DNA of 64,000 bases, taken from contig CCNC01000071.1 in the NCBI GenBank assembly GCA_000824845.1, positions 1 through 64,000 of the forward strand, read 5' to 3'. The notes below the pieces were generated by a model. That model saw nothing but the letters and a program-made list of their open reading frames with translations, had not been told where the DNA came from and made no database searches. This stretch comes from Mesorhizobium sp. ORS 3359. Its GTDB lineage: Bacteria > Pseudomonadota > Alphaproteobacteria > Rhizobiales > Rhizobiaceae. A program made the translations under genes and the position numbers. Below, in pieces: positions 41,504 through 58,465 of this stretch (position 1 is the stretch's first letter; every line of letters begins with the position of its first letter).

Positions 41504-41537
41504 CTGTCATGAAGCGTCACCATTTGTGAGACAAGAA

Positions 41538-42335
41538 ATGCCGCGCCCCTATACTCTGTACATGGATGAATCGGGCAACCGTCACCCAGACAAGAAAGCC
41601 GATGCATCCCGCGAGGGGCGCGATTGGTTTGGCTTCGGCGGATATCTGGTGCGAGGTGAAGACAATGATGCCGTAAGGAAACTAGTGGCGGAGTTCTCCT
41701 ACGAGTGGAAACTTCGGCAGCCCCTTCACATCACGGACATGCTGTCCGAATCAAAAGGGTTTGCATGGCTTGGCCGCAAGGATCAGGCGACTCGGGAGGC
41801 GTTCTGGGATGGCTGGCGTCATGTCCTGTGCAGCGCTCCAGTAATCGGCATCGGATGTGTCATAGACCGACCCGGCTATGTCGCGCGAGGGTATCTAGAG
41901 AAACACAAGGATAAATGGCTTCTATGCCGAAGCGCGTTTGACATAACGGTGGAACGAGCCGCGAAAATCGCCCGACTGGAGGGGAGGAAACTGCATGTCG
42001 TCTTTGAACAAGACGCAGCAGTTAACGAGACTGTCACCGGCTATTTTCACAATCTGAAGGAAAATGGCTTGGGCTTCGACGGTAAAAACAGCGAGAAATA
42101 CAAGCCCTTAAGGCAAGTTGAATTTGCGGAGACTCTGGGGCGCATTCAGCACAAGCCAAAGTCTCATACAATGCTTCAAGTCGCAGATAGTTTCATCTAT
42201 GCCATGGCTCGGCATGGGTACGATAAGAAATTTTGGATCCATCGAAGTCTGCGAGACAGGAAGCGTCTTGCCGACTTCGCCTTGGACGCTGAGCATCTGC
42301 CCCAGCTGGGCATCAAATATTATTGCTTCGACTAG
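41538..42335 (+). CDS. DUF3800 domain protein
   Basis: 265-aa protein. The DUF3800 hallmarks are the N-terminal YTLYMDESGNRHPD, a central IGIGCVIDRPGY, and the C-terminal MLQVADSFIYAMARHG; these Asp/Glu residues suit an RNase H-like metal site. DUF3800 proteins are frequent on mobile and defence islands, but their activity is not established. It is bounded by the IS1595 remnant upstream and a strong terminator downstream, so it is a single-gene unit. AT content and codon use differ from the backbone. Confidence 0.85.
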   Translation: MPRPYTLYMDESGNRHPDKKADASREGRDWFGFGGYLVRGEDNDAVRKLVAEFSYEWKLRQPLHITDMLSESKGFAWLGRKDQATREAFWDGWRHVLCSAPVIGIGCVIDRPGYVARGYLEKHKDKWLLCRSAFDITVERAAKIARLEGRKLHVVFEQDAAVNETVTGYFHNLKENGLGFDGKNSEKYKPLRQVEFAETLGRIQHKPKSHTMLQVADSFIYAMARHGYDKKFWIHRSLRDRKRLADFALDAEHLPQLGIKYYCFD

Positions 42336-42371: not shown

Positions 42372-43117
42372 GCCCCCATACGGTGAGCCTGAAAGGCTTT
42401 GCAGCCTCAAGACGCAAAATAGGCATGGGATTGTTGCTGTCAAGTTAATTCCCGGTATATTTCTTGCTTGGTTGCGCTTGTGTCCTTTTTGCCCATTTCT
42501 TCGCGCCCCTGACGCCGTCGCCGGCGTCCCTTAGCCTCTTGATGTTGTCCATAAACGGCTTGATGAGCGCGGCATCCCGCCCCTTCGCCCGCGGGATGCA
42601 CGTGGCGGTTTCGCGATTTGACGTGCTGCGTACTGCTTCGTGCTTCAGGATCAGCGATAAAGCTCGGCCTTGCGGAATTGGCTTGGCGCGCGGCGCAGCG
42701 GCACGATTTGAGACGGGTCGCCCCTTGTAGCTAAGGATCAGCAGCACCGCGTCTATGTGGACAAGCTGGTGAGCCAGGACCGCGCCCTTGAACCGGAACG
42801 CTTGGCTACAAGCATGTTGATTTCGTGTTCGTATCGGGTGGAGCGGACGATAGGGGCAACTCTCGGCATGCCCGAATTTCATGGGAACCCGCCAGGTCGC
42901 GCCTCGTCTAAGTTGGTGCTTTTGCTACAGGCCGTAAAAGCTTCCAAACGCTTGCATTTGGTGTACGTGCACTATCCGCGGTGGTCAGAGTATTGTTGAG
43001 ATCGTCCGTTAGAAATAGTGATATGTCGAGGACAGAAGACTGTATTGGTGGGTTTGAGTAAAATGTGAAAGCCAATCGATACGCCTCCCTAAATGTGGGT
43101 TGCCCCGGATCATTCCA
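42372..43117. other. 746-bp region with no assignable gene
   Basis: There are open frames on both strands, for example a minus-strand frame of 145 codons at 42445-42882 ending in a lysine-rich tail. I recognise no family in any frame and see no good ribosome site. Composition is island-like. It probably holds gene remnants and the promoter for the nuclease-helicase gene. Confidence 0.5.
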
Positions 43118-46100
43118 ATGCAGAAAATCGGCAAGGAATTACAGCTGAGCGCCTCCGACCTGGTCGGACATCTGAATTGCGGACACCTGACAGCACTCGA
43201 TCGCCTTGTCGCGGACGGCGACCTCAAGAAGCCTTATGTCTGGGACCCGTTTCTGGAAATCCTCCAACAGCGCGGCGCCCAGCATGAAGCGGGCTTCATC
43301 GATCATCTGCGCGCCTCGGGGGTCGCGCTGATCGTCATCGACGGAAAAGGGGTTGACGGCAATGCCGTAGCGGCCACGCTGGACGCCATGCGGGCCGGCG
43401 CCCCAGTCATTGTCCAGGCTGCCCTGCGGGCTGCGCCTTTCGCGGGACGCGCCGACATTCTCCGCCGCATCGAAGTGCCGAGCAAGCTCGGCGCCTGGTC
43501 CTACGAAGTGATCGACACCAAGCTCGCCCGCGAAACCAAAGGCGGGACGGTCCTGCAGCTGTGCCTTTATTCCGATCTCCTCGCCGGGGCGCAGGGCCGG
43601 GCGCCGGAGTTCGCCTATGTCGTGCCGCCAGTGACAGGCTTTGCGCCGGAACGCTTTCGCCTCAGCGACTACGCGGCCTATTTCCGCTATGTCAGGGGCC
43701 GGCTGCAGGCTGCGGTCGGCGCCGACGAAGATATTTATCCGGAGCCGGTGCCATATTGCGATATCTGCCGCTGGCGGGGAGACTGCGACAAGCGCCGCCG
43801 CGAGGATGATCACCTCTCGCTCGTCGCCGGCATCAGCGCGATCCAGCGAAGCGAACTCGAGCGCCATGGCATCGCCACGATGACTGCGCTCGGCGAGCTC
43901 CCCTTGCCTTTGCCGTGGAAGCCGGATCGGGGCGCGGCGTCCTCCTATGTGCGGATCCGAGAGCAGGCCCGAATCCAGGTGATGGGCCGCACGGCCCAGA
44001 CCCTGTTGCATGAGCGGCTCCCGATAGAATCCGGGTTCGGCCTCTGCCGGCTGCCGGAGCCGGACCAAGGAGACATCTTCTTCGATCTGGAAGGTGACCC
44101 CTTTGTTGGCGAAGGCGGACGGGAGTATCTGTTTGGTTATGCCTTCAAGGCCGCGTCGGGCGAGATGAGCTATGTCGGCGACTGGTGCTTCACGCCGGCT
44201 GACGAGAAGGCGGCGTTCGAACGCTTCATCGACTTCGTGACCGAGCGCCGCAAACTTCACCCCAATCTGCACGTCTATCACTACGCGCCTTATGAACCGG
44301 GTGCTCTCAAGCGGCTTATGGGACGATATGCCAGCCGCGAGGAACAGGTCGATGGCCTGCTGCGCGGCCAAATCCTGGTCGATCTTTACGGGGTGGTGCG
44401 CCATGCTGTGCGGGCGAGCGTCGAGAGCTATTCGATCAAGAAGCTGGAGCCCCTTTTCGGCTTTGTCCGGGCCGTCGCGCTGCAGGATGCAAATCGCGCG
44501 CTGAACAAGGTGCAGGCCTGCCTCGAACTAGGCGATCCGGCCGGCATCACCCAAGCCGATCGCGAAGCGGTGACCGGCTACAACAAGGACGATTGCCTCT
44601 CGACGGCCAGCCTTCGGGGCTGGCTCGAGGCGCTTCGCGCGGAAGCTGAAGGCGGGGGCGAGATCATTGCGCGCCCAATACTCGTGCCCGAGGAAGCCAC
44701 GGCCGAGATCACGGCCTGGCAGGCCCGGATCGAAGCCCTGGTGGCGCGCCTAATGAACGGCATCCCGGTCGATCCGGCTCAGCGAACGGCGGTCGAGCAC
44801 GCGCAATCTCTCCTTGCCAACATTCTCGATTGGCACCGTCGGGAAAAGAAGGCCACTTGGTGGGAGTATTTCCGCCTGGCCGGCCTTTCGGTCGAAGAGC
44901 TGTTTGACGAGCGGGCGGCCATTTCCGGCCTGAGCTTCCGGCAGGTCGCCGGTGGGACCGCTAAGGCGCCGGTTCACCGCTATCAGTTTCCCGCGCAGGA
45001 AGCCGAATTCCGGGGAGGGGAGGATTTGCGCAGCGTCGGCGGCGGGACATTCGGCAAGGTCGTGGCGGTCGATCTCGAGAACCGGCTGATCGACATCAAG
45101 AAGCGCGGCGATACCGCCGACGTTCATCCCGATGCGGTGTTCGAGCACGGCGATGTCGACAGCAAGGTGCTGGCGGAATCGCTGGTCAGAATCGGTGAGC
45201 ATGTCGCCGAGCACGGTATGGCGGGACCGGGACCGTTCAAGGCTGCACGCCATCTTCTGCAACGCTTGCCGCCCGATGTCGGCGGCGCTCCGTTGCGAAA
45301 GCCGGATGAGACGATTGCGGCGGCCGCATGCCGACTGGTGACGGTGCTCGACGGTGTATTGCCCATCCAGGGGCCGCCCGGCGCCGGCAAGACCTATACC
45401 GGCGCGCGGATGATCCTCGAGCTTGTCCGGGCAGGGCTGCGCGTCGGGGTCACCGCCAACAGCCACAAGGTCATTCGCAACCTGCTCGACGCTGCGATCG
45501 AGGAGGCGCGGCAGCAGGGAGTTGATCTCCGGTGCATGCACAAAGTGGCCGAGAAAACGGAAGATATCGCCCATATTTCATTTTCGACCGACAACGCCGA
45601 AGTCCTGAGCGCCGCGGGGAAAGTCAACCATGTCATCGCCGGGACCGGTTGGATGTGGTCGCGCCCTGATGCTGTGGGCGCAGTTGACGTCCTGTTCATC
45701 GACGAGGCTGCGCAGATGTCGCTCGCTAACGTGCTTGCGATTTCACCAGCCGCAACAAGTCTAGTCCTGCTTGGCGACCCGCAGCAGCTTGAACAGCCGA
45801 TGCAGGGCTCGCATCCAGAAGGCGCCGACATCTCGGCCCTCGAGCATCTGTTGGCCGGGCGACAGACGATAGGCGAGGAGGAAGGGCTGTTCCTTGATCA
45901 GACCTGGCGCCTGCATCCTTCGATCTGCGCCTATACCTCTGAACTCTTTTATGAGGGCAGGCTGCATCCACGCCCCGGTCTGGAGAACCAGTCCATTCTG
46001 ATGGACGGTCCGCTCGGCGGCGCCGGCCTGCGCTATATCCCCGTGCCTCATGCCGGCAACCAGAGCGTAAGCCCGCAAGAAGCGGACCGGGTCGGCAAGG

Positions 46101-46510
46101 TCGTGGAGGAGATCCTGAACGCGGGCGCACGCTGGATCAACCGTGAAGGGGTGGAAGCTCCGCTCAAGCTGGAAGACATCCTCATCATCGCTCCCTACAA
46201 CGCCCAGGTGTTCGAGATCCAGGACCGGTTGCCAGGTGCCCGCGTCGGGACGGTGGACAAGTTCCAGGGCCAGGAAGCGCCTATCGTCATCTATTCGGTG
46301 ACGACTTCGAGCTATGCCGACGCGCCACGAGGCATGGAATTCCTCTATAGCGCAAACAGGCTCAACGTAGCGACATCGCGCGCAAAATGTCTTTGCATCA
46401 TCGTCGCAAGTCCCGACATCTTCGAGCCCGATTGCCGGACGCCTCGGCAAATGCAGCTGGCTAACGCTTTCTGCCGGTACCTGGAAATGGCTTCCATCGT
46501 GGACTTGTGA
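43118..46510 (+). CDS. RecB-like nuclease / RNase H-like / SF1 helicase fusion (TM0106 type)
   Basis: 1130-aa three-part enzyme. An N-terminal Cas4/RecB-like nuclease (about 1-230) has AGRADIL, VIDTKLARETKGG, QLCLYSDLL and a cysteine cluster YCDICRWRGDC suited to an Fe-S site. A YprB-like RNase H/DnaQ domain (about 315-500) has DIFFDLEGDPF and TGYNKDDCLST. A C-terminal SF1 helicase has Walker A IQGPPGAGKTYTG (about 750), DEAAQMSL (about 861) and VDKFQGQEAPIVIYS. The start at ATG 43118 is preferred over TTG 43100. It ends 133 bp before zorA on the same strand and may belong to the defence block. Confidence 0.88.
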   Translation: MQKIGKELQLSASDLVGHLNCGHLTALDRLVADGDLKKPYVWDPFLEILQQRGAQHEAGFIDHLRASGVALIVIDGKGVDGNAVAATLDAMRAGAPVIVQAALRAAPFAGRADILRRIEVPSKLGAWSYEVIDTKLARETKGGTVLQLCLYSDLLAGAQGRAPEFAYVVPPVTGFAPERFRLSDYAAYFRYVRGRLQAAVGADEDIYPEPVPYCDICRWRGDCDKRRREDDHLSLVAGISAIQRSELERHGIATMTALGELPLPLPWKPDRGAASSYVRIREQARIQVMGRTAQTLLHERLPIESGFGLCRLPEPDQGDIFFDLEGDPFVGEGGREYLFGYAFKAASGEMSYVGDWCFTPADEKAAFERFIDFVTERRKLHPNLHVYHYAPYEPGALKRLMGRYASREEQVDGLLRGQILVDLYGVVRHAVRASVESYSIKKLEPLFGFVRAVALQDANRALNKVQACLELGDPAGITQADREAVTGYNKDDCLSTASLRGWLEALRAEAEGGGEIIARPILVPEEATAEITAWQARIEALVARLMNGIPVDPAQRTAVEHAQSLLANILDWHRREKKATWWEYFRLAGLSVEELFDERAAISGLSFRQVAGGTAKAPVHRYQFPAQEAEFRGGEDLRSVGGGTFGKVVAVDLENRLIDIKKRGDTADVHPDAVFEHGDVDSKVLAESLVRIGEHVAEHGMAGPGPFKAARHLLQRLPPDVGGAPLRKPDETIAAAACRLVTVLDGVLPIQGPPGAGKTYTGARMILELVRAGLRVGVTANSHKVIRNLLDAAIEEARQQGVDLRCMHKVAEKTEDIAHISFSTDNAEVLSAAGKVNHVIAGTGWMWSRPDAVGAVDVLFIDEAAQMSLANVLAISPAATSLVLLGDPQQLEQPMQGSHPEGADISALEHLLAGRQTIGEEEGLFLDQTWRLHPSICAYTSELFYEGRLHPRPGLENQSILMDGPLGGAGLRYIPVPHAGNQSVSPQEADRVGKVVEEILNAGARWINREGVEAPLKLEDILIIAPYNAQVFEIQDRLPGARVGTVDKFQGQEAPIVIYSVTTSSYADAPRGMEFLYSANRLNVATSRAKCLCIIVASPDIFEPDCRTPRQMQLANAFCRYLEMASIVDL

Positions 46511-46643
46511 GCGAACAAGCTATCTGTTTCGTCCCCGAAGCAGGCCGCGATCGGCTCTGTGGATGTGGAGCAATGTTGCGGAAGCCTTGCAACCTGCGTT
46601 GCAAACAATAAAAGTCTCTGGCGGGCGACTAAGGGGCGGGTTC

Positions 46644-48815
46644 ATGTTCGTGTTCTTCAATTGGCTAACGCGGTCAGTACTATTCTGGCTGATCGCTGCT
46701 GCCGCGGTTCTCCTGGCGGCAAAAGAGTTACCGTTCATCAATCTACCGTTGGTGTGGGGCACAATCCTGGGCGCCACATCCGGGAACATCGAGTCCATTA
46801 GCAAACCGGCATTCGCGTACGGACTTGCCGGCGGTCTCTTCTTCACCGGAATCGGTTTCGCGGCTGCCTTCTACATTTGCCACGTTTTTCCGGTCCAGAT
46901 CGCGCTGTGGCGTGCGACGGGTCAGGTCACCCGGGCCAAGGGCAAGGAGCGAGGGCGGGACGCCATTCGCAAATCCTTCGCCTCAAACTTCGAGAGTCTG
47001 CGCCAGACTCTCGAGCGAAATTCATTGATCGGGCATGCATGGCTCGAATTCGAAGAGACGCTGTTCAACACCGACGGCGACAGAGCGATTGGCAACACTG
47101 TCCGGCCGCAGACTTTTTTCAATCTGGCGCTGGCCCGCGAGAGGTTGAGCGGCCTCAAGATGATGAACGCGGTGCCCGGCTATTTTGTAGGCGTTGGGCT
47201 GCTTCTGACGTTCATTGGCCTGGTCTTCGCTCTTTACAAGGCCGGGGCGGCCGCAAATGCCGGCGACGCCGACAAGATGGCCCAAGAGATGGGCGCGCTT
47301 CTGCAGATCGCCACTTTCAAGTTCTCAACCTCGATCGCGGGACTGGGTGCCTCCATCGTCTTGTCCGTCATTTTTCGTTGGTATTTTGTCTTGGTCGAAA
47401 GTGCATTCGAGCGATTCAACGCCACGCTCGAGCGTGGCCTGCTCTATACCGCGCCACAATCGATCTCGTTGGAAATGAACAGGACCCTGCAGGATCAGTT
47501 GGTGCAACTGAAGGACATCACTCAAGGTGAGTTCTTCAGTCGCATGGGGTCCGAGCTCGCACCGAGGCTGAATGCCGCGATCGTTGAAGCGATGGCTCCG
47601 GTGACCGACCAGATAGGAAACGCTGTTGGCAGCCTGACTGCCAACAGCCAGGACGGCGTGCAACAGATGCTGCACAAATTCACCGACTCCTTGCAGCACG
47701 GAGCTGGGACGGAACTTCGCGAGCTCGCAGCAACCCTGAAGCAGCTCCAGATGTCCATCGTTGAAATGCAGGGTGGGCTACGCGGCAGCGGCGACGAGTT
47801 TGCAACCAAGCTGTCCGATGCGGCAGACAATCTGAACCGCATGGTGGAGCGCGCGGGCCAAAGCTTCGAGACGAGCTCGGGCCAAAGCCGCGATGCGTTG
47901 GCGACAGTCATGGATTTGCTCCGCCAGACAATGGAGAAAGCCAACGCTGAAATAGACACTGCCCTTGGCACAGCAGCCAGCGGTGCGTCCACCAAGCTCG
48001 AGGCGGCCATGGGCCTTGTCATGGACAAGCTCGACAAGCGGATTGGCGAGTTGGGAGATGGTCTGCAAACGATGCAGAGGACCATGGGAGAACACGGAGA
48101 CGCGGCCAGAAGGCAGATCGAGGTCTCGGTTTCGCAATCCACCGACATGCAAAAAGCTGTTTTGTCGGAGTTGGAAGCCACAGTTCAGGGTATATCGGGT
48201 CGGATCAGCAGCGCGGTCGAAGATGCCGTCGCTTCAGTAGGTAGGCGATTTGATGAGCTTGCCGCTTCCATGCGAGCGATTGAGGGCGCATTGATCGGTC
48301 AGAAGGCAGCACTCGAGGGAGCATCAAGCGAAGCCAGAAAGACCGCAGAAGCGCTCGGAAAGAGTGCCCAGAGCGTTCAGGCAGCGACCGCGCCGCTTGT
48401 CAGCGTCGGCGATCGCTTCTCGTTGGCCACGGAGAAGATGACGGAGGGAGTCACAGCGACCCTTGATGCGCTCAAACTGGCGCAATCAGAGATGGCTGGA
48501 CTCGCCGCGGATCTCTCGGCGGCCAACAAGTCATCTGGCGACTTCTGGAACAATTTTGCAGGCAAATTCGATGACGTCGACACGGCGCTCGGCCAAGCCG
48601 TGTCTGTGCTGTCTAGATCCACGAGCGACCAGCAACAAAGGCTTGAAACACACGTGCAGAGCGTAGACAGGGGCCTATCGGAAGCAATCGGCAAGCTTTC
48701 GGGCATCCTGACCCAGATGTCCGACAGCGCGGAGTCCATTGCCGATAGTCTGGAAGCCGCGAAGGTGGGTGGTGCTTTGAGCAGCTCCAACGGTGCGCGC
48801 GGGACCCAGCAATGA
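46644..48815 (+). CDS. zorA: Zorya anti-phage protein ZorA (MotA/ExbB-like)
   Basis: 723-aa inner-membrane motor subunit. Membrane segments lie near residues 10-27, 58-80, 180-198 and 228-250; the third and fourth carry the MotA/ExbB-like core (PGYFVGVGLLLTFIGLVFAL and FSTSIAGLGASIVLSVIF). The remaining ~470 residues are a long helical, coiled-coil-rich tail, as in ZorA, which projects into the cytoplasm. The start at 46644 has AAGGGGCGGG just upstream; an ATG at 46563 would add 27 residues with a weak site. The stop overlaps zorB by four bases. Confidence 0.92.
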   Translation: MFVFFNWLTRSVLFWLIAAAAVLLAAKELPFINLPLVWGTILGATSGNIESISKPAFAYGLAGGLFFTGIGFAAAFYICHVFPVQIALWRATGQVTRAKGKERGRDAIRKSFASNFESLRQTLERNSLIGHAWLEFEETLFNTDGDRAIGNTVRPQTFFNLALARERLSGLKMMNAVPGYFVGVGLLLTFIGLVFALYKAGAAANAGDADKMAQEMGALLQIATFKFSTSIAGLGASIVLSVIFRWYFVLVESAFERFNATLERGLLYTAPQSISLEMNRTLQDQLVQLKDITQGEFFSRMGSELAPRLNAAIVEAMAPVTDQIGNAVGSLTANSQDGVQQMLHKFTDSLQHGAGTELRELAATLKQLQMSIVEMQGGLRGSGDEFATKLSDAADNLNRMVERAGQSFETSSGQSRDALATVMDLLRQTMEKANAEIDTALGTAASGASTKLEAAMGLVMDKLDKRIGELGDGLQTMQRTMGEHGDAARRQIEVSVSQSTDMQKAVLSELEATVQGISGRISSAVEDAVASVGRRFDELAASMRAIEGALIGQKAALEGASSEARKTAEALGKSAQSVQAATAPLVSVGDRFSLATEKMTEGVTATLDALKLAQSEMAGLAADLSAANKSSGDFWNNFAGKFDDVDTALGQAVSVLSRSTSDQQQRLETHVQSVDRGLSEAIGKLSGILTQMSDSAESIADSLEAAKVGGALSSSNGARGTQQ

Positions 48816-49720
48816 TCGTCGCCGAGCCCGATCACCGAGCTGTGTCTCACGCCGAGGAGGACGAGAACTATTTCGTGTCGATGACCGATATGATGGTCGG
48901 CATCCTGTTTATCTTCATCATCATGCTGATGGTGTTTGCCCTGCATTTTCGACAGCAGACCGATGAGACCGTGAAGTTGACAGCGGAGCAGCAGCAGCAA
49001 TTGCAAAAAGCAAACGAGTTGGCAGAGCAGATAGCTCAACTGCGCCGCCAGATAGCAGCCGAGATCGCCGAATTGAACAAAGCTGACCAGGCGCGTGCCA
49101 GGCTGCTGGAGAAAATTCAGCGCAAACTGGACGAAGTGGGCCTCAAAGTCACAATCGAGCGTGAGACCGGAGTACTACGACTTACGGAAGAGGCCATTCG
49201 CTTCTCGCCGGACAGCTCGGCGCTGGACGACACTGCCAAACGCAATGTCGATGCTGTGGCAAAGGTCCTGCTTGACGTGCTCGCCAACTATGCCGCCTGC
49301 CCGGACACCGAGACCTGCCCAGGCGCCTCCGGCTACGTTGTCGAAACGGTCTTTATTGAAGGTCACACCGACAGGACCGGGGACGACGGCCGGAACTGGC
49401 AGCTTTCCACTGAAAGAGCTGTCAACACCTATCGCAGGATCGTCGACAATTTCCCAGGTCTGCGCAAGCTGCGCAATTCCGATCATCGCGAGATACTGTC
49501 GGTTTCCGGCTATGCGTACACGCGCCCGGCGACCGAGCAGGACGATAGCGAAGGCTTCCGCATCAATCGCAGGATCGATCTGCGTTTTGTAATGGAAGCC
49601 GATCGACGCGAAAGGTTGACGGAAGTCCTCGATCTTCTGGACAAGATGGAAAAGAAGGTCGGCGAGCTGAGCCCGACCGGAACACCTGTCATCTCGACTG
49701 CTCCGACGGCAAGGCCATAA
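48812..49720 (+). CDS. zorB: Zorya anti-phage protein ZorB (MotB/OmpA-like)
   Basis: 302-aa motor partner. A short cytoplasmic N-terminus leads into one membrane helix (about 25-46) starting FVSMTDMMVGILFIF; Asp26 is in the place of the proton-carrying Asp of ZorB/MotB. A coiled linker (about 50-115) precedes an OmpA-like peptidoglycan-binding domain with FIEGHTDRTGDDGRNWQLS and GFRINRRIDLRFVM. Two cysteines in CPDTETCPG resemble the disulfide region seen in ZorB. ATGA coupling with zorA fixes the start. Confidence 0.93.
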   Translation: MIVAEPDHRAVSHAEEDENYFVSMTDMMVGILFIFIIMLMVFALHFRQQTDETVKLTAEQQQQLQKANELAEQIAQLRRQIAAEIAELNKADQARARLLEKIQRKLDEVGLKVTIERETGVLRLTEEAIRFSPDSSALDDTAKRNVDAVAKVLLDVLANYAACPDTETCPGASGYVVETVFIEGHTDRTGDDGRNWQLSTERAVNTYRRIVDNFPGLRKLRNSDHREILSVSGYAYTRPATEQDDSEGFRINRRIDLRFVMEADRRERLTEVLDLLDKMEKKVGELSPTGTPVISTAPTARP

Positions 49721-49722
49721 GA

Positions 49723-51105
49723 TTGAGCAAACATCTCAAGGAGGCGATCGCAGAACTGCTCATACGCCACGGCGTGCCGGCGCGTGCGTCGGCGCCTGCG
49801 CAGATCGAGATCACGGCGGGCAAGCTGCGCGATACTGACGGTGACGCACCTCGGACAAAGGACTATGACGCGATATCCGAACAGCTGGCGCTCACACTTT
49901 CAAAAGGCGATAGCATCACCGGCAGGCAGGCACGCGACGGCGCATGGTGTCTTTGGCAGACCCGGTTCGCGATCGCGACGGACCCGGCGATGCTCGAGCC
50001 TTTTCTCGGGCAGCTTCGTGGGTTGAAGCACAAGGGTGCCTCCAGGGCGCTAGCTCTTTCATATTTGATCAGCTTCCACGAAGATCGACCAGGCCTTTCA
50101 GCCGTGGCCGCCACGCTGCGCGACCTTGCCGCCGTCGCCGGAAAGCCGTTTGACACGCTGGAGGAGAAGTACCGGATATTCGACATCAGCGACGGGCCGC
50201 GGCGGATAGGCGAGGCAGCGTTCGCGCACCGAAAGTCGCCTCGCACCGTGCTGGCAGAACAAGGACTACAGATGGAACTCGTACTCGGTGGCGGCTTTGT
50301 TGAGCCATGCGCCCGGCGAGTGCTTGAGCGCGTCGCGGAAGACAAAAGGCTGCCTTCGCTCGAACGCATCGATTTCGTGAAGCTGATTTCAGTTAATGGC
50401 GAAACGAAGCGGCTGAACTTTCCCGGCCACAAGGACCTCGTCGCCAATGCATTGCTGCTGCCATATGCAAACCAAAGACCAGATGAGGCCATTCGCGACA
50501 GGACACTTGACCTGCTGATTTCGCTCGAAGGCGTGGGTGATCCCCGCACGCGAAGCGGCAATTGGGCAAGCATGCCGCGATCTCGTGACATCGCGGTCTC
50601 CTGGCTGACCGAGCAGGCCCTCCGGCAATTCCTGGACGTTGTCGAAGAGGTCAACCCAAACGACTATTGGCACTATCGACGGACATTCTGGGAAGCAATG
50701 CACGACAGCGATGCCATTTCGGCCGCTTGGGTCGTGATGGACCGCGAAGGGGCTCGAGAGGCACGACGGCGGTTCGGCAAGAACACCGGTTTTGCCCAGT
50801 TCACCTCCGGCGCCGTGCAGGCCGGACATGCCGTCTTGCTACTGCGTATCGGCGAGGGGGTTTGTGCGGAGTGGAGTTTCAACGGCAAATGCAGGTTCTG
50901 GCAGGATGCGCAACGTCAGGGTGCTCCGCGCCTTTATGACGATGGCTACGACGCCGAATTCTTGCGCACCGGTACAAGGTATCCGCCGATACTCGAGATT
51001 ACACACTATCCCCACACTGGGCCGAACGCCTGGCAGCATCTGGCTGCCCGCCAGATCCAGGGTATGACTGGTATGCGATTTTCACCCAAGGAGTACATGC
51101 CGTGA
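49723..51105 (+). CDS. zorC: Zorya anti-phage protein ZorC (EH-signature protein)
   Basis: 460-aa cytosolic protein with an EH_Signature-type C-terminal region: WHYRRTFWEAMHDSDAISAA, CAEWSFNGKCRFW and ITHYPHTGPNAWQHLAARQI, which carry the conserved Glu and His residues. The N-terminal half is helical. ZorC works with ZorD against invading DNA after ZorAB senses phage (family knowledge). It starts with TTG two bases after zorB and ends overlapping zorD by four bases, so the order and coupling are those of type I Zorya. Confidence 0.88.
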   Translation: MSKHLKEAIAELLIRHGVPARASAPAQIEITAGKLRDTDGDAPRTKDYDAISEQLALTLSKGDSITGRQARDGAWCLWQTRFAIATDPAMLEPFLGQLRGLKHKGASRALALSYLISFHEDRPGLSAVAATLRDLAAVAGKPFDTLEEKYRIFDISDGPRRIGEAAFAHRKSPRTVLAEQGLQMELVLGGGFVEPCARRVLERVAEDKRLPSLERIDFVKLISVNGETKRLNFPGHKDLVANALLLPYANQRPDEAIRDRTLDLLISLEGVGDPRTRSGNWASMPRSRDIAVSWLTEQALRQFLDVVEEVNPNDYWHYRRTFWEAMHDSDAISAAWVVMDREGAREARRRFGKNTGFAQFTSGAVQAGHAVLLLRIGEGVCAEWSFNGKCRFWQDAQRQGAPRLYDDGYDAEFLRTGTRYPPILEITHYPHTGPNAWQHLAARQIQGMTGMRFSPKEYMP

Positions 51106-54080
51106 GCCTGAGCTTTCGGCATGTATCTCTTCCCAGCGGCGTGCAATTGAAGGTTTTGCGGCGACGATTGCTTGGCACCCAAGTCGTCGAGACCTCGCTT
51201 TGGCCGCATCTGACAGGCAAGGAGGGCGCTGCTGCGCGCTATCTGCTGGCGCTTGCAGATAGTGGCGAGGCTGACATCTCGGCCACCGAGGTATTGGTTG
51301 TGCACCCTGCGATTGCGGCATTGCCTGCCTCCGTGGCGGAGGCTGTCAGATTGCCTCCACTTGGCACTCTTTCAGTGACGTTGGCGTTTCAAGGGATCAT
51401 GACCGATCCGAGGGCCCGCATTCGCGTCAGCTGGTATGATGCCGACACTCGCAGAATAAGGATTGAAAGAACCGGAGCACTGGCCCGGTGGGGTGCCTTG
51501 GAGGGCCGCCTGTCAGGGCCTCTCTATGCACTGACCGAGGCTATCGATCGCTACAACGCAACCGAGAGTTCCGGCTCGGACATACGGATCGCTGCTTGGG
51601 CGCCGGTGCAAAATGCATTGAAGATGACCACCGGACAGGAGGTAAGTACCGAAGATCGCTTTCTTACCAGCCTCACGATCTATCAAGCAGGGGCGGTTGC
51701 GCTGGATGTCTTCGCGACCCCCTATGGGCCAGATTTCCTCCCCGTTGTCATGGGTCGAGAGAAATCGGCAACCCTTAATGATGATGCGCCCGCCCCGGAA
51801 GGAACCGAGCACGCGCCAGCGGCACCAGATCTCGTCTCTGACGCTCTGTTACCTGAGCCGCTCCAAAGACGTTTCGCAAGCGAACTGTTTGCTGCCGAAT
51901 CCACCAGTCGGGATGCCTATGTTCTCGATCGAAACACCTACCTTGTTGTCGATCCGGCGCTCAAATCCGCCTTGGATGTCATCCGGACGAAACGTTCCGC
52001 GCCGCGAGAAGAGCGTATTTCATTCCTCCAGAATCCCAGGATCGAAATTGCACGGGCGCTCGGCGACGAAACAGGTGAGATGGCGCAGACTCTGCTGGTC
52101 GAAACTTGGCAGTATTCGGAGCGCATTCTCGGCCTCGGCGTCTGGGAGCCGCCTGCCATGCCATGGCTTAAGAACAAGGCCGGCCAATGGTTGCCCGAGC
52201 GCTTTCCCGTCAGGATCGGCGACCAGATCGTCGAAATGGATCAACGGATTTTCGACGGTCTCAAGACCGCAGTGGCTGCTGCAGATCAGCAAGGCGACAG
52301 CAAAATCCAATTGGGTGATCGGGCATTCAAGGTCCCGGAGGTCCAGGATGCTTTTGAACGGCTTGGTCTCGACCGTCAGGGAAATGCGCCAACTCAGGCC
52401 GTTGAGGAGGGCAATCAGCTAGAACAAACTCAAAGGGACCCGCACGCGGGTGAACAAGAACGCCTCATCATTCAACAAAATTTTGAAGGCAAGGAATTTG
52501 CCGTCTCCCACAATGCCAGGCAGACCGTGGCAGGCGACGAATTTCCTCCAACAGAGGTTGTCACGACAAGACCAAAACCGCATCAAAAGGACGGCTTTGA
52601 TTGGCTGGTCGGCAGCTACAAGGCAGGCTGGCCAGGCGTGCTACTCGCCGATGACATGGGTTTGGGAAAGACCTTTCAGGCTCTAGCCTTCCTGGTGTGG
52701 GTCAGACAAATCCGGAGCAAGCTCGGCATCGATGCAGGCTCGCAAAAGAAGCCGGTGCTAATCGTGGCACCGACGGCGCTTTTGCGTAACTGGGTCGAGG
52801 AAGCCGACCGACATCTGGCGCCGCAAGCGTTGGGCGAGCGCATAGATGCATTCGGTTCGGCCTTGCGTCACCTCAAGATGGAAAGGCTCGAGCACTGGAC
52901 TGCCGAAACTGCGCTTGACGTCGCCAGGTTGCGCTCGGCCGACTGGATACTGACGACCTATGAGACACTCGCCGACTACCATCGGGCCTTTGCGCGCGTC
53001 CCATTCAGTGTGGCCGTCTTTGACGAAGCGCAGAAGATCAAGTCGCCTGGCTCGATCAACACACAGTCCGCGAAGGCTATGAATGTCGAATTCGCGCTGG
53101 CCCTCACAGGGACGCCCATTGAGAACCGTCTTGCCGACTTATGGTGCATCATGGATCGCGTGGTTCCGGGCTATCTCGGGGATCTTAAGGGCTTCGTCCA
53201 GAGCTACGAGAAAGGCGGCGGGGACGACCTTCGGCGATTGAAAGCCAGCCTTGATCAGCCTCCGAGGCCAGAGACCCCGCCCGTGCTATTGAGGCGGATG
53301 AAGGCGGAAATTCTGGAGGGCTTGCCAAAACGCGAGGTCTCAAAAAGGCAGATGCAAATGCCGCCGGAACAGGCGGAAGCCTATGCCGCGGCAGTCTTTC
53401 GGGCACAAACCGGCGGCACAAGCCAGGGCGATATGTTGCGGGCGATTCATGCATTCCGGGGCATATCATTGCATCCAACCGGGAGCTCTGGCTGCGATCC
53501 GCTCGACATGACCTCGGTGCGGGATTGGATCGCAAAATCGGCGCGCATGGTCCATGCGGTCAAAGTTCTGGAGCACCTAAACACAATCGGCGAGAAGGCA
53601 CTGGTGTTTGTTGAAGACCTTGAGGTCCAGAAGGTTTTCGCAGCTGCGATCGCCACTCATTTGCAAATGCCACGCCAGCCGGCGATCATTAACGGGACTG
53701 TTCCGGGAGAAAAGCGGCTTGAGATCGTAGAAAGGTTTCAGTCCTCAAGCTCACGTTTCGACTTGCTTGTGCTCTCGCCCAAGGCTGCCGGCATCGGTCT
53801 CACGATCACTGCCGCAAACCACGTGATCCATCTGTCGCGGTGGTGGAATCCGGCCGTAGAAGACCAGTGCAACGATCGCTGTTATCGCATCGGGCAGCAA
53901 AGGCCGGTCACTGTCCATGTGCCAATCGCAGTCCATCCGGAATTTGGCGAGACCTCTTTCGATCAGACACTCGATGCATTGTTGGAGCGAAAGCGCCAGC
54001 TCTCGCGCGACATGCTTGTCCCACCTGTAGAGGATGGCGATGTCGAAGCCCTCTTCGGCAGAACGCTCGGAAGGGTCTGA
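51102..54080 (+). CDS. zorD: Zorya anti-phage protein ZorD (SNF2-family ATPase)
   Basis: 992-aa SNF2/RapA-type DNA translocase. The N-terminal ~500 residues carry no clear catalytic motif that I can see. The motor domain starts with LLADDMGLGKTFQALAFLVW (Walker A about 515-530), followed by FDEAQKIKSPGSINTQ (motif II about 640) and GTPIENRLADLWCIMD. The second lobe has HLSRWWNPAVEDQCNDRCYR-IGQQ (motif VI). In type I Zorya, ZorD degrades invading DNA. GTG start overlapping the zorC stop. Confidence 0.92.
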   Translation: MSLSFRHVSLPSGVQLKVLRRRLLGTQVVETSLWPHLTGKEGAAARYLLALADSGEADISATEVLVVHPAIAALPASVAEAVRLPPLGTLSVTLAFQGIMTDPRARIRVSWYDADTRRIRIERTGALARWGALEGRLSGPLYALTEAIDRYNATESSGSDIRIAAWAPVQNALKMTTGQEVSTEDRFLTSLTIYQAGAVALDVFATPYGPDFLPVVMGREKSATLNDDAPAPEGTEHAPAAPDLVSDALLPEPLQRRFASELFAAESTSRDAYVLDRNTYLVVDPALKSALDVIRTKRSAPREERISFLQNPRIEIARALGDETGEMAQTLLVETWQYSERILGLGVWEPPAMPWLKNKAGQWLPERFPVRIGDQIVEMDQRIFDGLKTAVAAADQQGDSKIQLGDRAFKVPEVQDAFERLGLDRQGNAPTQAVEEGNQLEQTQRDPHAGEQERLIIQQNFEGKEFAVSHNARQTVAGDEFPPTEVVTTRPKPHQKDGFDWLVGSYKAGWPGVLLADDMGLGKTFQALAFLVWVRQIRSKLGIDAGSQKKPVLIVAPTALLRNWVEEADRHLAPQALGERIDAFGSALRHLKMERLEHWTAETALDVARLRSADWILTTYETLADYHRAFARVPFSVAVFDEAQKIKSPGSINTQSAKAMNVEFALALTGTPIENRLADLWCIMDRVVPGYLGDLKGFVQSYEKGGGDDLRRLKASLDQPPRPETPPVLLRRMKAEILEGLPKREVSKRQMQMPPEQAEAYAAAVFRAQTGGTSQGDMLRAIHAFRGISLHPTGSSGCDPLDMTSVRDWIAKSARMVHAVKVLEHLNTIGEKALVFVEDLEVQKVFAAAIATHLQMPRQPAIINGTVPGEKRLEIVERFQSSSSRFDLLVLSPKAAGIGLTITAANHVIHLSRWWNPAVEDQCNDRCYRIGQQRPVTVHVPIAVHPEFGETSFDQTLDALLERKRQLSRDMLVPPVEDGDVEALFGRTLGRV

Positions 54081-54083
54081 TCG

Positions 54084-56153
54084 TCAGGGTAATCCAGCCT
54101 CGGCGAGGTAAGGCGACAGAATTGTGGGCTTGTCGCCAATGCGACCCGAACTCGTCAGGATCAAGCGCTTCTTCGCCCTGGTCATCGCAACGTAAAACAG
54201 TCGCCTCTCGCCCTCGAGCGCTCGTTCAGTTTGAGCAAACCGAAGTGGCCAGATGCCGTCGACAACATCCAGCATGACCACTGTATCGAACTCGCGCCCC
54301 TTGGCTCGCAGCGCTGTCATCAGGTGGATGGGCTTCTTCCACTCCTCGTTTGCTGAATCATCGGAGTCCATTCCGGGCAGCTTGACAAGGGTATCCTTCG
54401 CCTTCTCCAAATCATCGACGAAGCTCTGGAAGTCCTCCCCGTAGGTTTCTGAGAATTCCGCCAGATAGGCGAACGGTGGATCGGCCAGGAAGATATCCTC
54501 AGAGCCGCGTCCATGATCCTTTTTGAATCCTGCGTAGAGGGTCTGAAGAGCCTCGATAGCCGCTCTTACAGTCGGCGCGTGGAGCAGCTTTCGAAGCCGG
54601 ATTGCGAAGTTGGCGGCTGTGGCGCCCTCGTCGGTCTGCCCGCGGATCGGACCTGAATAAGTCTGGAGCTGGGCAATGGCTGCATCGTAGGATTTGGGTC
54701 TCACCGAGCGCACATGCCTAGCCATCGCATCTGCTTCAACCCGGCGCAGCGGATACCGCTGCACGGAATTGCAAAGGGCCATGACGTCATCGACAATCGT
54801 CGGGACTGCGATACCAAGGCCCGCCATGGTGCGCGTCCGAAGCGCGCCCAGCAGCCGGTCAAAGGTGTCGGATAGGAAAAGATGAAGGTCTTCCGCGGCG
54901 CAAAAAGGAATGTCCTCTCGCGCGAGCAGAATCTGGTAGGGAATTAGCTGGGCGCGCTTCCTCGATAGCAGGGCCATCCGCGCTCCAGGTGCCTTTTTTC
55001 CAACGAAGCTCCGGATTTCGTCGAGCACGCTTTCGACGGAATCCAAAAAAGTTTGCCCTGAATACATGAAGGTTTGCGCTTCAACGGTTGAAACGGCATG
55101 CATGCTCTTTGCGACTCTTCGCTTGTTGTGCGCGATGAGACGAGCGGATTTCTCCACGATGTTTCGCGGGCTGCGGTAATTCTTCTCCAAAATATAGGTC
55201 TTGAACGGCCGCCCTAAATGCCGATCCGGTTCAAGGATGAAATCGGGCGCCGCGCCACGCCACTCGAAGATGGCCTGATCGTCGTCGCCGACAATGGTGA
55301 GTGCCGACTGATTCAGGTCGGCAACCTTCATAATCAGTGCCAGGTCGAGAGGATTGATATCCTGAAATTCATCGACGAGGATGTCTGTGATCCTTGCCCC
55401 CGGAGCGGGTAGATTTCCGGCAGCCAGTTGTCGCCGCTGGTCGAGCCAAGCACCGTATTTTTGGTCTTCAAGGGTGAACGAACCGGTCGCGAACTGCTGA
55501 ACGCAGGCGGCATTGAAGAATGGCAGCGCGATCTCTAGGAAAGTCTCCCACCGGCGGTTGTCGACGACACCGAGATCCTCGAACTTGACGATGAAATCTT
55601 CGAGCAACGATAGCAGGCCCAGCTCCTCCAAGGACTCCAATCGTTGATCGGCCATTGCGAGCGATCCATCTTCATGGTCGAAGGCCAGCGATTTCATAGT
55701 ATCAAGCAGATCCGCCAACAGCTTCGGCAACTTGAAGGGCTGGTGTTTCATACCCTTGTCCAGCTCAGGAACCGATGACCACGCAGGAGCCAGCACGGTC
55801 CTTACAAGATTGGCTCGCTCGATTTCGGCAACGTGGAGTCGTGGCTGGGTCGACATCGCGCGAAGCCGCCTATGTCCCCATCCATTGAGCGTCACAACAT
55901 CGGCGCGTGTCGAGAAGGGCGCGAACGCCGGCTCTGAAAGCCTGGCCCGCAACTCGTCACGAGCGGCCCGCGTGAAGGAAACGATGAGGAAGGACGAGCT
56001 TCCGACCGAGCGACGGTGAAGTTCAGCACAGCGATGGAGGAGGGAAAGTGTCTTGCCACTTCCGGCAGGTGCGAGCAACCTTATGTCTGTCTGGGTGGCA
56101 TTGACGAAGGCAAGCTGGGTAGCATCCAGGGCGGCGGAAGCGATGCTGTTCAA
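54084..56153 (-). CDS. UvrD/Rep-type superfamily 1 helicase
   Basis: 689-aa ATP-dependent DNA helicase. Motifs: Q-like TQLAFVNA, Walker A LAPAGSGKTLSLLHR (about 30), motif Ia VSFTRAARDELRARL, motif II VDEFQDINPLD (about 265), motif III GDDDQAIFEWRGA, motif IV YRSPRNIV and motif VI RRLFYVAMTRAKKRLIL. It is shorter than UvrD. The TTG start at 56153 is supported by AGGAG upstream. It converges on zorD with only 3 bp between stops, so it is probably part of the same defence cargo, though it is not a standard Zorya component. Confidence 0.88.
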   Translation of the reverse strand: MNSIASAALDATQLAFVNATQTDIRLLAPAGSGKTLSLLHRCAELHRRSVGSSSFLIVSFTRAARDELRARLSEPAFAPFSTRADVVTLNGWGHRRLRAMSTQPRLHVAEIERANLVRTVLAPAWSSVPELDKGMKHQPFKLPKLLADLLDTMKSLAFDHEDGSLAMADQRLESLEELGLLSLLEDFIVKFEDLGVVDNRRWETFLEIALPFFNAACVQQFATGSFTLEDQKYGAWLDQRRQLAAGNLPAPGARITDILVDEFQDINPLDLALIMKVADLNQSALTIVGDDDQAIFEWRGAAPDFILEPDRHLGRPFKTYILEKNYRSPRNIVEKSARLIAHNKRRVAKSMHAVSTVEAQTFMYSGQTFLDSVESVLDEIRSFVGKKAPGARMALLSRKRAQLIPYQILLAREDIPFCAAEDLHLFLSDTFDRLLGALRTRTMAGLGIAVPTIVDDVMALCNSVQRYPLRRVEADAMARHVRSVRPKSYDAAIAQLQTYSGPIRGQTDEGATAANFAIRLRKLLHAPTVRAAIEALQTLYAGFKKDHGRGSEDIFLADPPFAYLAEFSETYGEDFQSFVDDLEKAKDTLVKLPGMDSDDSANEEWKKPIHLMTALRAKGREFDTVVMLDVVDGIWPLRFAQTERALEGERRLFYVAMTRAKKRLILTSSGRIGDKPTILSPYLAEAGLP

Positions 56154-56254
56154 ATCCGGCTCCTATCTAGCCAAAAATCAGTCACGAGGTTGCAGAGTAG
56201 ACCGGAGGCTGTCAAACGGCTTCCAAAAGTGACTCGGACGAATTCTTGGACTGG

Positions 56255-56485
56255 TTATGCTGCAATTCCCAGGTTCCGGCGGTATTCGGAGGGGCTCAGG
56301 CCACCGAGTGAGATCTTGATGCGATGCTGATTGTACCACCGGATGTAGGAATCCACCTGCTGCATGAAGTCTTCGAGCGTCGTGTTGATCCAGTCGCGAT
56401 GGTAGTACATCTCATTTTTCAGCCGTCCGAAGAAGCCCTCGCAGGCTGCGTTATCCGGTGAGCATCCTTTGCGTGACATGGACCG
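56255..56485 (-). pseudogene. C-terminal fragment of an IS3-family transposase
   Basis: The last ~76 codons of an IS3-type OrfB remain: SMSRKGCSPDNAACEGFFGR, whose Glu belongs to the DDE triad, and YIRWYNQHRIKISLGGLSPS. The sequence upstream of this point is unrelated, so the N-terminal three quarters are gone. Confidence 0.8.
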
Positions 56486-56531
56486 TGCGAGCTGAGCATT
56501 GTGCATTCGTAAGAGCCATCCAGGCCAGCGA

Positions 56532-56690
56532 TAATGGGCGTTGCGGTCGTTGATCGGTGAGATCGTGCTTACGCCCGGGGACAGGCGCGGTGAGGTGCAT
56601 GCCGAGCTGCGCGGCGAGTTGTTCGGCATCCTCGAATTCGCCAATCCTGAACAAAATCAAAGCCTTGCCGATGTTATGACAAAAGGGGTT
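56532..56690 (+). pseudogene. C-terminal remnant of a large serine recombinase
   Basis: LIGEIVLTPGDRRGEVHAEL followed by RGELFGILEFA is the typical tail of resolvase-type recombinases. No catalytic domain is near. The remaining bases to 56866 hold nothing I can assign. Confidence 0.55.
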
Positions 56691-56866: not shown

Positions 56867-58177
56867 TTAATGTGATTTTCGGAGCTTGGAGATTCGCCTC
56901 GATGTTTGGTGAGCTGTCGCTGTTGGGTCCCAAGTGGACTCCCCCGGTCGTGCATGGACAACAGGCTTGCCGCGCCCCACGATTGAGATTACCCGCGCGT
57001 TTTTGCTCTCGAGTTCATCCAGGTAATCGGCCCACCATTGCATCATCTTGACGCGCTCTTCCCAGTGCTCTGCCCGGGCGTAGGCACGACGAACGTTGTT
57101 GTTCTCAATGTGGGCCAGCTGCCGTTCGATGGCGTCCGGATGCCATTTTCCGCATTCGTTTAGCAGAGTTGATGCCGTTGCTCGAAAACCGTGCGCCGTA
57201 GCTTCCTCCTTGCCGTAGCCCATACGGCGCAGGGCGGCGTTAACCGTGTTGTCGGAAATCGGACGCGAAGCCGATCGAACGCTAGGAACCAGCAGCGATC
57301 CGCCACCAGAAATTTCTCTGAGTGAGGCCAGGACGCTCAAGGCCTGCCTTGAAAGGGGTACGCGGTGCGGCCGTCGCATTTTCATGCGTGCTTCAGGAAT
57401 GATCCACACCGAGCTTTCGAAATCGAACTCTTTCCATTCTGCCGCGCGAAGCTCGCCGGGGCGGGGAAACAGCAGTGCGATCAGCTTCAGGGCGGCACGG
57501 GTTGTAGGCTGTCCATCAAATGCATCGATCGCCCTCAGCAAGCCGCCCAAGGCCTTAGGATCAGTAATCGCGGCACGAGGCGTGACCGTCGGGCTGATGA
57601 GCGCGCCCCTGAGAGCGATCGTCGGATCTGCCTCGGCGCGTGCTGTCGCGATTGCGAATCGAAACACAGTGCCAATTGTTGAGCGTAGGCGCCTGGCCGA
57701 CTCGTATCGACCGCGAACCTCCACGCGACGGAGAGCAGTAAGGATGCTTGCCGTATCGATCTCCCGAATGCACTTGGCGCCGATTGTCGGATAGGCAAAG
57801 TCGAGCAGCCATTTGACCTTGCTGATCGTCCGATCGGCACGTCCTTCCTTCTTCAGCTTCTCAACATATTCGTCTGCGATTGAGCGAAAGGTGTCATTTG
57901 GCGAATTAGCCTTCTGGAATTTGCGCTGCTGGGCCGGGTCGGCACCAGCCTTGAGGAGACGTTTGGCTTCATCGCGCGCTTGGCGGGCATCAGCGAGAGA
58001 AATGACAGGATAGCTGCCCAGAGACAGCAGCTTCTGCTTCCCACCGAACCGATAGGCGAGGCGCCATAGCCTTGTTCCCGACGGCTGGACCCATAGCTGG
58101 AGCCCGCCGCCGTCGGATATTTTCTGGAGCTTGGACGCAGGCCGGATGTTTCGGCATTTCATGTCGGAGAGAGCCAA
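56867..58177 (-). CDS. P4-type tyrosine recombinase (island integrase)
   Basis: 436-aa integrase. The N-terminal DUF4102/arm-binding domain (about 1-95) has ISDGGGLQLWVQPSGTRLWR and LGSYPVISLADARQARDEA. The catalytic domain keeps Arg in LLFPRPGELRAAEW, the HGFRATAST box and the tyrosine in VRRAYARAEHWEERVKMM. The TTG start at 58177 is supported by AGGAGGT 8 bases upstream. It begins 213 bp from the tRNA-Phe 3' end, the usual arrangement for integration there. The catalytic residues are intact, so it may still be active. Confidence 0.94.
   Translation of the reverse strand: MALSDMKCRNIRPASKLQKISDGGGLQLWVQPSGTRLWRLAYRFGGKQKLLSLGSYPVISLADARQARDEAKRLLKAGADPAQQRKFQKANSPNDTFRSIADEYVEKLKKEGRADRTISKVKWLLDFAYPTIGAKCIREIDTASILTALRRVEVRGRYESARRLRSTIGTVFRFAIATARAEADPTIALRGALISPTVTPRAAITDPKALGGLLRAIDAFDGQPTTRAALKLIALLFPRPGELRAAEWKEFDFESSVWIIPEARMKMRRPHRVPLSRQALSVLASLREISGGGSLLVPSVRSASRPISDNTVNAALRRMGYGKEEATAHGFRATASTLLNECGKWHPDAIERQLAHIENNNVRRAYARAEHWEERVKMMQWWADYLDELESKNARVISIVGRGKPVVHARPGESTWDPTATAHQTSRRISKLRKSH

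Positions 58178-58389: not shown

Positions 58390-58465
<76 letters not shown>

Follow-up and report, generated by a model that had tools for sequence, protein, structure and literature searches.

A complete, divergent type I Zorya operon with a candidate accessory UvrD-like helicase gene beside it

The 64,000-nucleotide stretch of DNA analyzed here (the window) carries, at positions 46644 to 54080, a zorA-zorB-zorC-zorD operon that almost certainly encodes an anti-phage system of the type I Zorya kind, with all of its parts. Converging on this operon is a gene for a UvrD-like helicase whose close relatives, in all of the loci where they were found, also lie with type I Zorya genes. The gene content and order of the operon, its intact frames, its family membership, and its conserved residues were read directly from the window. 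Taken alone the operon is ordinary, and what deserves a bench test is the helicase gene that recurs beside it.

A complete and divergent type I Zorya operon

The initial annotation had described a complete four-gene operon with 4-bp overlaps and a 2-bp gap, and this layout proved exact: four intact open frames lie in the places claimed, all on the same strand, with 0 internal stops and spacings of −4, +2, and −4 bp. The four genes and the linked helicase gene are as follows.

46644..48815, + strand: zorA, 723 aa, MotA/ExbB-like membrane subunit with a long cytoplasmic helical tail
48812..49720, + strand: zorB, 302 aa, MotB/OmpA-like subunit
49723..51105, + strand: zorC, 460 aa, TTG start, EH-signature protein
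51102..54080, + strand: zorD, 992 aa, GTG start, SNF2-family ATPase
54084..56153, − strand: uvrD-like SF1A helicase gene, 689 aa, tail-to-tail with zorD and 3 bp apart from it, candidate accessory gene

The zorA frame opens at 46563, and the ATG at 46644 was chosen as its start because a purine-rich stretch precedes it and the start then falls near that of a relative (L022). The same A-B-C-D gene order is also present in the relatives' loci.

Assignment to type I Zorya is supported by the best profile for each of the four products, namely PADLOC ZorA1 (PDLC00605, 1180 bits, over residues 3-715), ZorB1 (PDLC00612, 333 bits), ZorC1 (PDLC00626, 730 bits), and ZorD1 (PDLC00629, 1178 bits), which cover nearly the whole length of each Zor protein with scores far beyond chance. 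Pfam agrees with the domain types proposed earlier for the last three genes: in addition to their PADLOC matches, the second product carries an OmpA domain (41 bits), in line with its MotB/OmpA-like identity, the third passes EH_Signature (151 bits; cut-off, 27.5), and the fourth contains the SNF2-rel_dom and Helicase_C domains of an SNF2 ATPase. ZorA also passes NCBIfam antiphage_ZorA_1 (903 bits; cut-off, 190). The NCBIfam equivalogs ZorB1 and ZorD are missed widely by ZorB (23.7 bits; cut-off, 400) and ZorD (340 bits; cut-off, 1500), which we take to mean that the operon belongs to a divergent branch within type I and is not another system. With this complete but divergent example, type I Zorya extends beyond the gammaproteobacterial systems that have been examined mechanistically.

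ZorC1 matches occur in 20 of the 297 sampled genomes of the order, the window's own included, so the operon is not rare. The weakest of them (G182, 34 bits) is accompanied by no other Zor protein within the 15 kb read, and the genus's other genomes listed in the order sample, seven in number, gave no ZorC1 match. Type I Zorya is sporadic, ordinary defense cargo in this order. ZorD relatives in Methylobacterium, Bradyrhizobium, and Shinella, together with the kinship tables, point to a rhizobial host. Two genomes of one genus (L028 and L029) have zorA, zorB, and zorC, yet nothing in the stretch read matched ZorD, and beyond their zorC lie genes that, judged from sequence, are molybdopterin oxidoreductase-like. 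Do these loci represent a Zorya that lacks ZorD or one that is completed differently? Large UvrD-superfamily proteins are encoded beyond zorD in a Bradyrhizobium Zorya locus (1317 aa, L038:14425-18378, 1.4 kb beyond) and in a Methylobacterium Zorya locus (1137 aa, L039:15338-18751, 2.3 kb beyond).

A UvrD-like helicase gene recurs beside type I Zorya

The window helicase matches Pfam UvrD-helicase (98 bits) and UvrD_C (110 bits), its motifs are intact (GSGKT, DEFQD, and later ones), and it does not reach the NCBIfam equivalog cut-offs for UvrD, PcrA, or Rep. These three proteins are its best Foldseek matches (best E, 4e-17), with TM scores of just 0.29-0.56 and a model of moderate quality (pLDDT 71, pTM 0.48). 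Walker A begins near residue 30, and an N-terminal extension is absent. At the junction with zorD, RNA folding was barely better than that of shuffles (z = −0.86), and a terminator scan equaled the shuffle mean.

Close relatives of this helicase (47% identity or more) were found in 8 loci including the window, each of which is a Zorya I locus; three arrangements occur among them. The gene is convergent with zorD in six of them (the window, L225, L222, L226, L224, and L120), at a gap of 3 bp in the window and in L225, 7 bp in L222, and 46 bp in L226. In L223 it sits immediately ahead of zorA, in the same orientation. In L119 it is found 10 kb past zorD, from which it is separated by a pair of type III restriction genes, a GmrSD gene, and another UvrD-type gene. 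The viral contig L120 contains zorD and ends before the remaining operon. An ASCH-domain gene (about 300 aa) sits between the helicase gene and zorD in L120 (10084-10995) and in L224 (10442-11338).

In the order sample, helicase matches (E of 1e-30 or better) occur in 4 of the 297 genomes, all four among the 20 with ZorC1, and with the window's genome left out the figure is 3 of 3 (hypergeometric p = 2e-4); the large-group genome searches scored the best few candidates per genome (3 of 13, for example) and could have overlooked a helicase gene that lies apart from Zorya. Three more copies came from 131 genomes of the window's family; having been searched after the link was noticed, these three of the 8 amount to a prediction test, not a random sample. 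Three other families (5, 8, and 69 genomes) yielded no copies beyond those already known. The viral collection contributed one relative, L120, among the 80 listed of 123 confirmed stretches, the other 79 listed being 23-44% identical to the helicase over parts. No relative was found on plasmids at E 1e-40, and the window's own genome was the single one with a relative both among 385 genomes of the class (E 1e-80) and among 398 of the phylum (E 1e-30), samples that overlap the others.

Pairwise identities of the helicase are correlated with those of ZorD (r = 0.80 over 8 loci; 0 of 5000 permutations as high) and with those of ZorA, ZorB, and ZorC (r = 0.74, 0.65, and 0.77 over 7 loci; permutation fractions of 0.0006, 0.009, and 0.0006), while ZorA and ZorD are correlated with each other at r = 0.90. 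For these comparisons, ZorA, ZorB, and ZorC of L119 were taken from L027 and ZorA of L225 from L022, which represent the same loci. Side-by-side inheritance alone would also produce such correlations between the helicase and the Zor proteins. In a ZorD tree of 32 sequences, the 8 helicase loci cluster with L024 in a single group of 9, at a fork with support of 92/84 that is not among the starred ones. This tree was built without L022, L026, and L027 (same loci as L225, L226, and L119), without the partial ZorD sequences of L025, L042, L045, and L047, and without L028 and L029, which have no ZorD. L024, inside the group, carries a second helicase family and not the window type, so the helicase label needs two changes on the tree; since 42 of 500 shuffles were as low as the observed label changes, the label is just weakly clustered by this test.

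The second family is exemplified by a 679-aa UvrD-type protein encoded upstream of zorA in L024 (13732-15768), with an N-terminal extension and an ArmD-like architecture, which matches the window helicase over short stretches only. Its type occurs in 20 of the 297 genomes of the order, 6 of which (G106, G120, G130, G166, G203, and G247) have ZorC1 in the same neighborhood, an overlap with p = 9e-4, rising to 4e-3 once the query's genome is left out. The gene is convergent with zorD in G106, G130, and G203, and in G166 and G120 it sits ahead of zorA. Counting both families together, a helicase is present in 9 of the 20 ZorC1 genomes of the order, a count taken from the genome searches (an ORF-based scan misses the copies of G106 and G120, through overlapping frames dropped and a contig end); neither is present in the other 11, which counts against a helicase role. 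ArmD of the ARMADA system is reported to be a UvrD helicase of GajB-like type that carries a RelE-like N terminus and whose Walker A lysine is required for protection (PMC12458937). For the second family, the RelE-like signal in Pfam is a sub-threshold HigB-like toxin match (E, 0.29) in L033, one of the two proteins tested, so the name ArmD expresses a resemblance here and not a test.

How should the recurrent neighbor be read? A competing view, to which we give a little less than an even chance, is that the UvrD-like helicase is an independent gene of the defense island, stand-alone or Gabija-like, that merely lies beside Zorya. Its best PADLOC profiles are those of GajB (134 bits), defense genes are known to cluster, with type I or type III restriction, GmrSD, or MmeI genes near some copies (type I judged from ORF sequences, the others from profiles), and the second helicase family occurs without a ZorC1 match in 14 of its 20 genomes. 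Yet no GajA-like partner was found beside the helicase in the window, where its neighbors are zorD, a transposase fragment, and then an integrase; Zorya is the sole partner common to all 8 copies, across the three arrangements; and helicase distances track those of ZorD, though co-inheritance of neighbors gives the same result. Type I Zorya of Serratia is reported to protect as a four-gene system, without a helicase (PMC11890865).

On balance, we lean toward the window helicase being an accessory helicase of a Zorya I subclade, a role that we infer from linkage alone. We give an even chance to a further reading, in which this subclade, which would belong to the Hyphomicrobiales, has the UvrD-like SF1A helicase as a dedicated fifth component that acts with ZorC and ZorD on phage DNA; other Zorya I loci would use an ArmD-resembling helicase in the same positions, which would make an SF1 helicase a recurrent and exchangeable module of type I Zorya. 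If the link is functional, the likeliest role of the helicase is that of a DNA-unwinding helper of ZorC and ZorD. Were it part of the system, it would inform how ZorC and ZorD handle DNA, and it would explain a gene whose best defense-library match is GajB of Gabija. In the published Zorya literature, among the matches listed and at the level of titles and the opening lines of abstracts, a link between Zorya and a UvrD helicase is not described.

The island and its surroundings

Beyond the operon and the helicase gene, the island contains or adjoins the following features.

41514-42332: DUF3800 gene (35 bits; cut-off, 21) at the island's left end
43100-46510: RecB-like nuclease/helicase gene, in which a RecB-like nuclease domain of the TM0106 family (230 bits; cut-off, 97) is fused to an IGHMBP2-like helicase
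56258-56644: transposase fragment, IS3-like (Pfam rve_2 and rve_3), between the helicase gene and the integrase
56867..58177, − strand: tyrosine integrase (Pfam Phage_int_M, Arm-DNA-bind_3, and Phage_integrase)
58390..58465, − strand: tRNA-Phe (gaa), found by ARAGORN, its 3′ end facing the integrase; presumed insertion site

The earlier placement of the operon in an island agrees with its GC content, 0.585 versus about 0.645 outside, and with the tyrosine integrase next to tRNA-Phe. Low GC extends from about 40 kb to tRNA-Phe, except at 43-46.5 kb. A second copy of the tRNA-Phe 3′ end (att) was not found within the window. The gene at 43100-46510, directly upstream of zorA, has a GC content of 0.633, above that of the operon, and weak MkoA/MkoC matches; it was rejected as a Zorya component, as close relatives beside Zorya are absent in the loci compared, where its sole trace is a weak helicase-domain similarity in L047. 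The segment 40530-58390 is flanked on the left by a ribonuclease D-like locus and on the right by tRNA-Phe and a maf-like gene. In the two relatives examined, these flanks lie Mb apart (G1184) or on separate contigs (G1203), which indicates either a chromosomal rearrangement at the island or a misjoin in the contig.

That the operon is decayed or silent is quite improbable: the transposase fragment and the integrase do adjoin it and sigma-70-like promoter matches are absent in 46300-56400, but that scan was limited to one promoter type, all four frames are open, and the key residues are retained.

Conserved residues of the Zor proteins

The key residues that the initial annotation held to be visible are in place, that is, residues important in other Zorya systems are kept in the window's proteins. 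The description of ZorA as a MotA-like subunit with a long helical tail stood up too: Pfam finds only sub-threshold helical similarity in the tail, and the alignment of a family profile with the solved ZorA chains of 8VVN and 8QYD continues through it. In the membrane core, Thr189, Thr229, and Ser230 are invariant in 11 aligned sequences, and they lie in segments aligning with both structures. The choice of these positions was guided by what we take to be T147 and S184 of E. coli ZorA.

Asp26 of ZorB, pointed out earlier in the membrane helix, is real: MTDMM starts at residue 24, and Asp26 aligns with Asp24 of the Shewanella ZorB in 8VVN (E, 3e-22 for the alignment of the two proteins). The Shewanella residue is reported as crucial for defense, and in the motor studied a Ser/Thr ring surrounds the ZorB Asp (PMC11890865). 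His185, Leu198, Arg202, Arg253, and Arg258 of the window's ZorB, matched by motif, are peptidoglycan-binding-site residues; those named for the characterized ZorB are H186, L199, R203, R254, and R259 (PMC11890865). A flagellar, Ton/Exb, or gliding-type motor in place of Zorya is next to inconceivable, for although ZorB carries an OmpA domain with weak MotB matches, Zorya models were best for all four genes in a profile check against flagellar and Ton/Exb models set beforehand, flagellar MotB-type models, with cut-offs above 250 bits, scored just 20-39, the operon continues with EH-signature and SNF2 genes, and a flagellar or Ton identity was accordingly rejected on the NCBIfam profile scores.

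Position 383 of ZorC is Glu or Asp and position 428 is His in 14 of 14 aligned sequences, the window having Glu383 and His428. A counterpart of ZorC in the PDB was not found by single sequence or profile, so for these two residues the evidence is the alignment alone; E400 and H443, presumably of E. coli ZorC, guided the choice of positions. ZorD has its Walker A at 517-524 and DEAQ at 641, and it retains DDMGLGKT, DEAQK, and the later SNF2 motifs. Its residues 334-980 align with the solved chain 8QY7 (E, 2e-78), which, like 8QYD, we take to be of E. coli origin. Besides the two domains given above, Pfam finds a sub-threshold ResIII match and no nuclease domain in ZorD, while the PADLOC family is labeled an Mrr-like nuclease.

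A possible mechanism

Assembly, sensing, activation, and DNA destruction in the window system can be sketched from work on its homologues. ZorA and ZorB would form an ion-driven 5:2 rotary motor in the inner membrane. Phage entry would disturb the envelope, upon which the OmpA domain of ZorB may grip peptidoglycan and the ZorA tail may relay the signal to the cell interior. There, ZorC together with the SNF2 ATPase ZorD would engage and destroy the incoming DNA. The UvrD-like helicase would probably assist ZorC and ZorD on DNA, for example, by unwinding or by clearing ends. Work on homologous Zorya systems reports a 5:2 ion-driven motor, a ZorB that binds peptidoglycan, a ZorA tail on which defense depends, and ZorC and ZorD that are recruited to the DNA injected (PMC11890865; PMC12904381). 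PMC11890865 argues for host DNA damage and population-wide immunity in Zorya systems, and we thus consider both direct and abortive modes possible.

Comparison with known systems

The characterized type I Zorya systems (Serratia and Shewanella, PMC11890865; structures 8VVN, 8QYD, and 8QY7) have the same four genes in the same order, and they share with the window the motor Asp, the peptidoglycan residues, the EH-signature protein, and the SNF2 ATPase. They differ from it in sequence: identity is low, ZorA not being found by single-sequence search, and the first third of ZorD barely aligns with 8QY7. Unlike them, the window has a helicase gene converging on zorD.

Close parallels are the Zorya I loci that carry the same helicase, at 47-80% identity, beside their Zorya genes (L225/G050, L226/G167, L222, L223, L224, L119, and L120). 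The position of the helicase gene differs among them, and all three arrangements given above occur.

GajB of Gabija has UvrD-like domains and motifs in common with the window helicase. At 689 aa, however, the latter exceeds most of the GajB models listed (365 to 725 positions), no GajA adjoins it in the window, and it is found with Zorya in 8 of 8 loci. ARMADA offers a reported case in which a UvrD-superfamily helicase works beside an SNF2-type helicase in one defense system (PMC12458937). Its ArmD has an N-terminal extension, whereas the window helicase has none, and the family that resembles ArmD sits in other Zorya loci.
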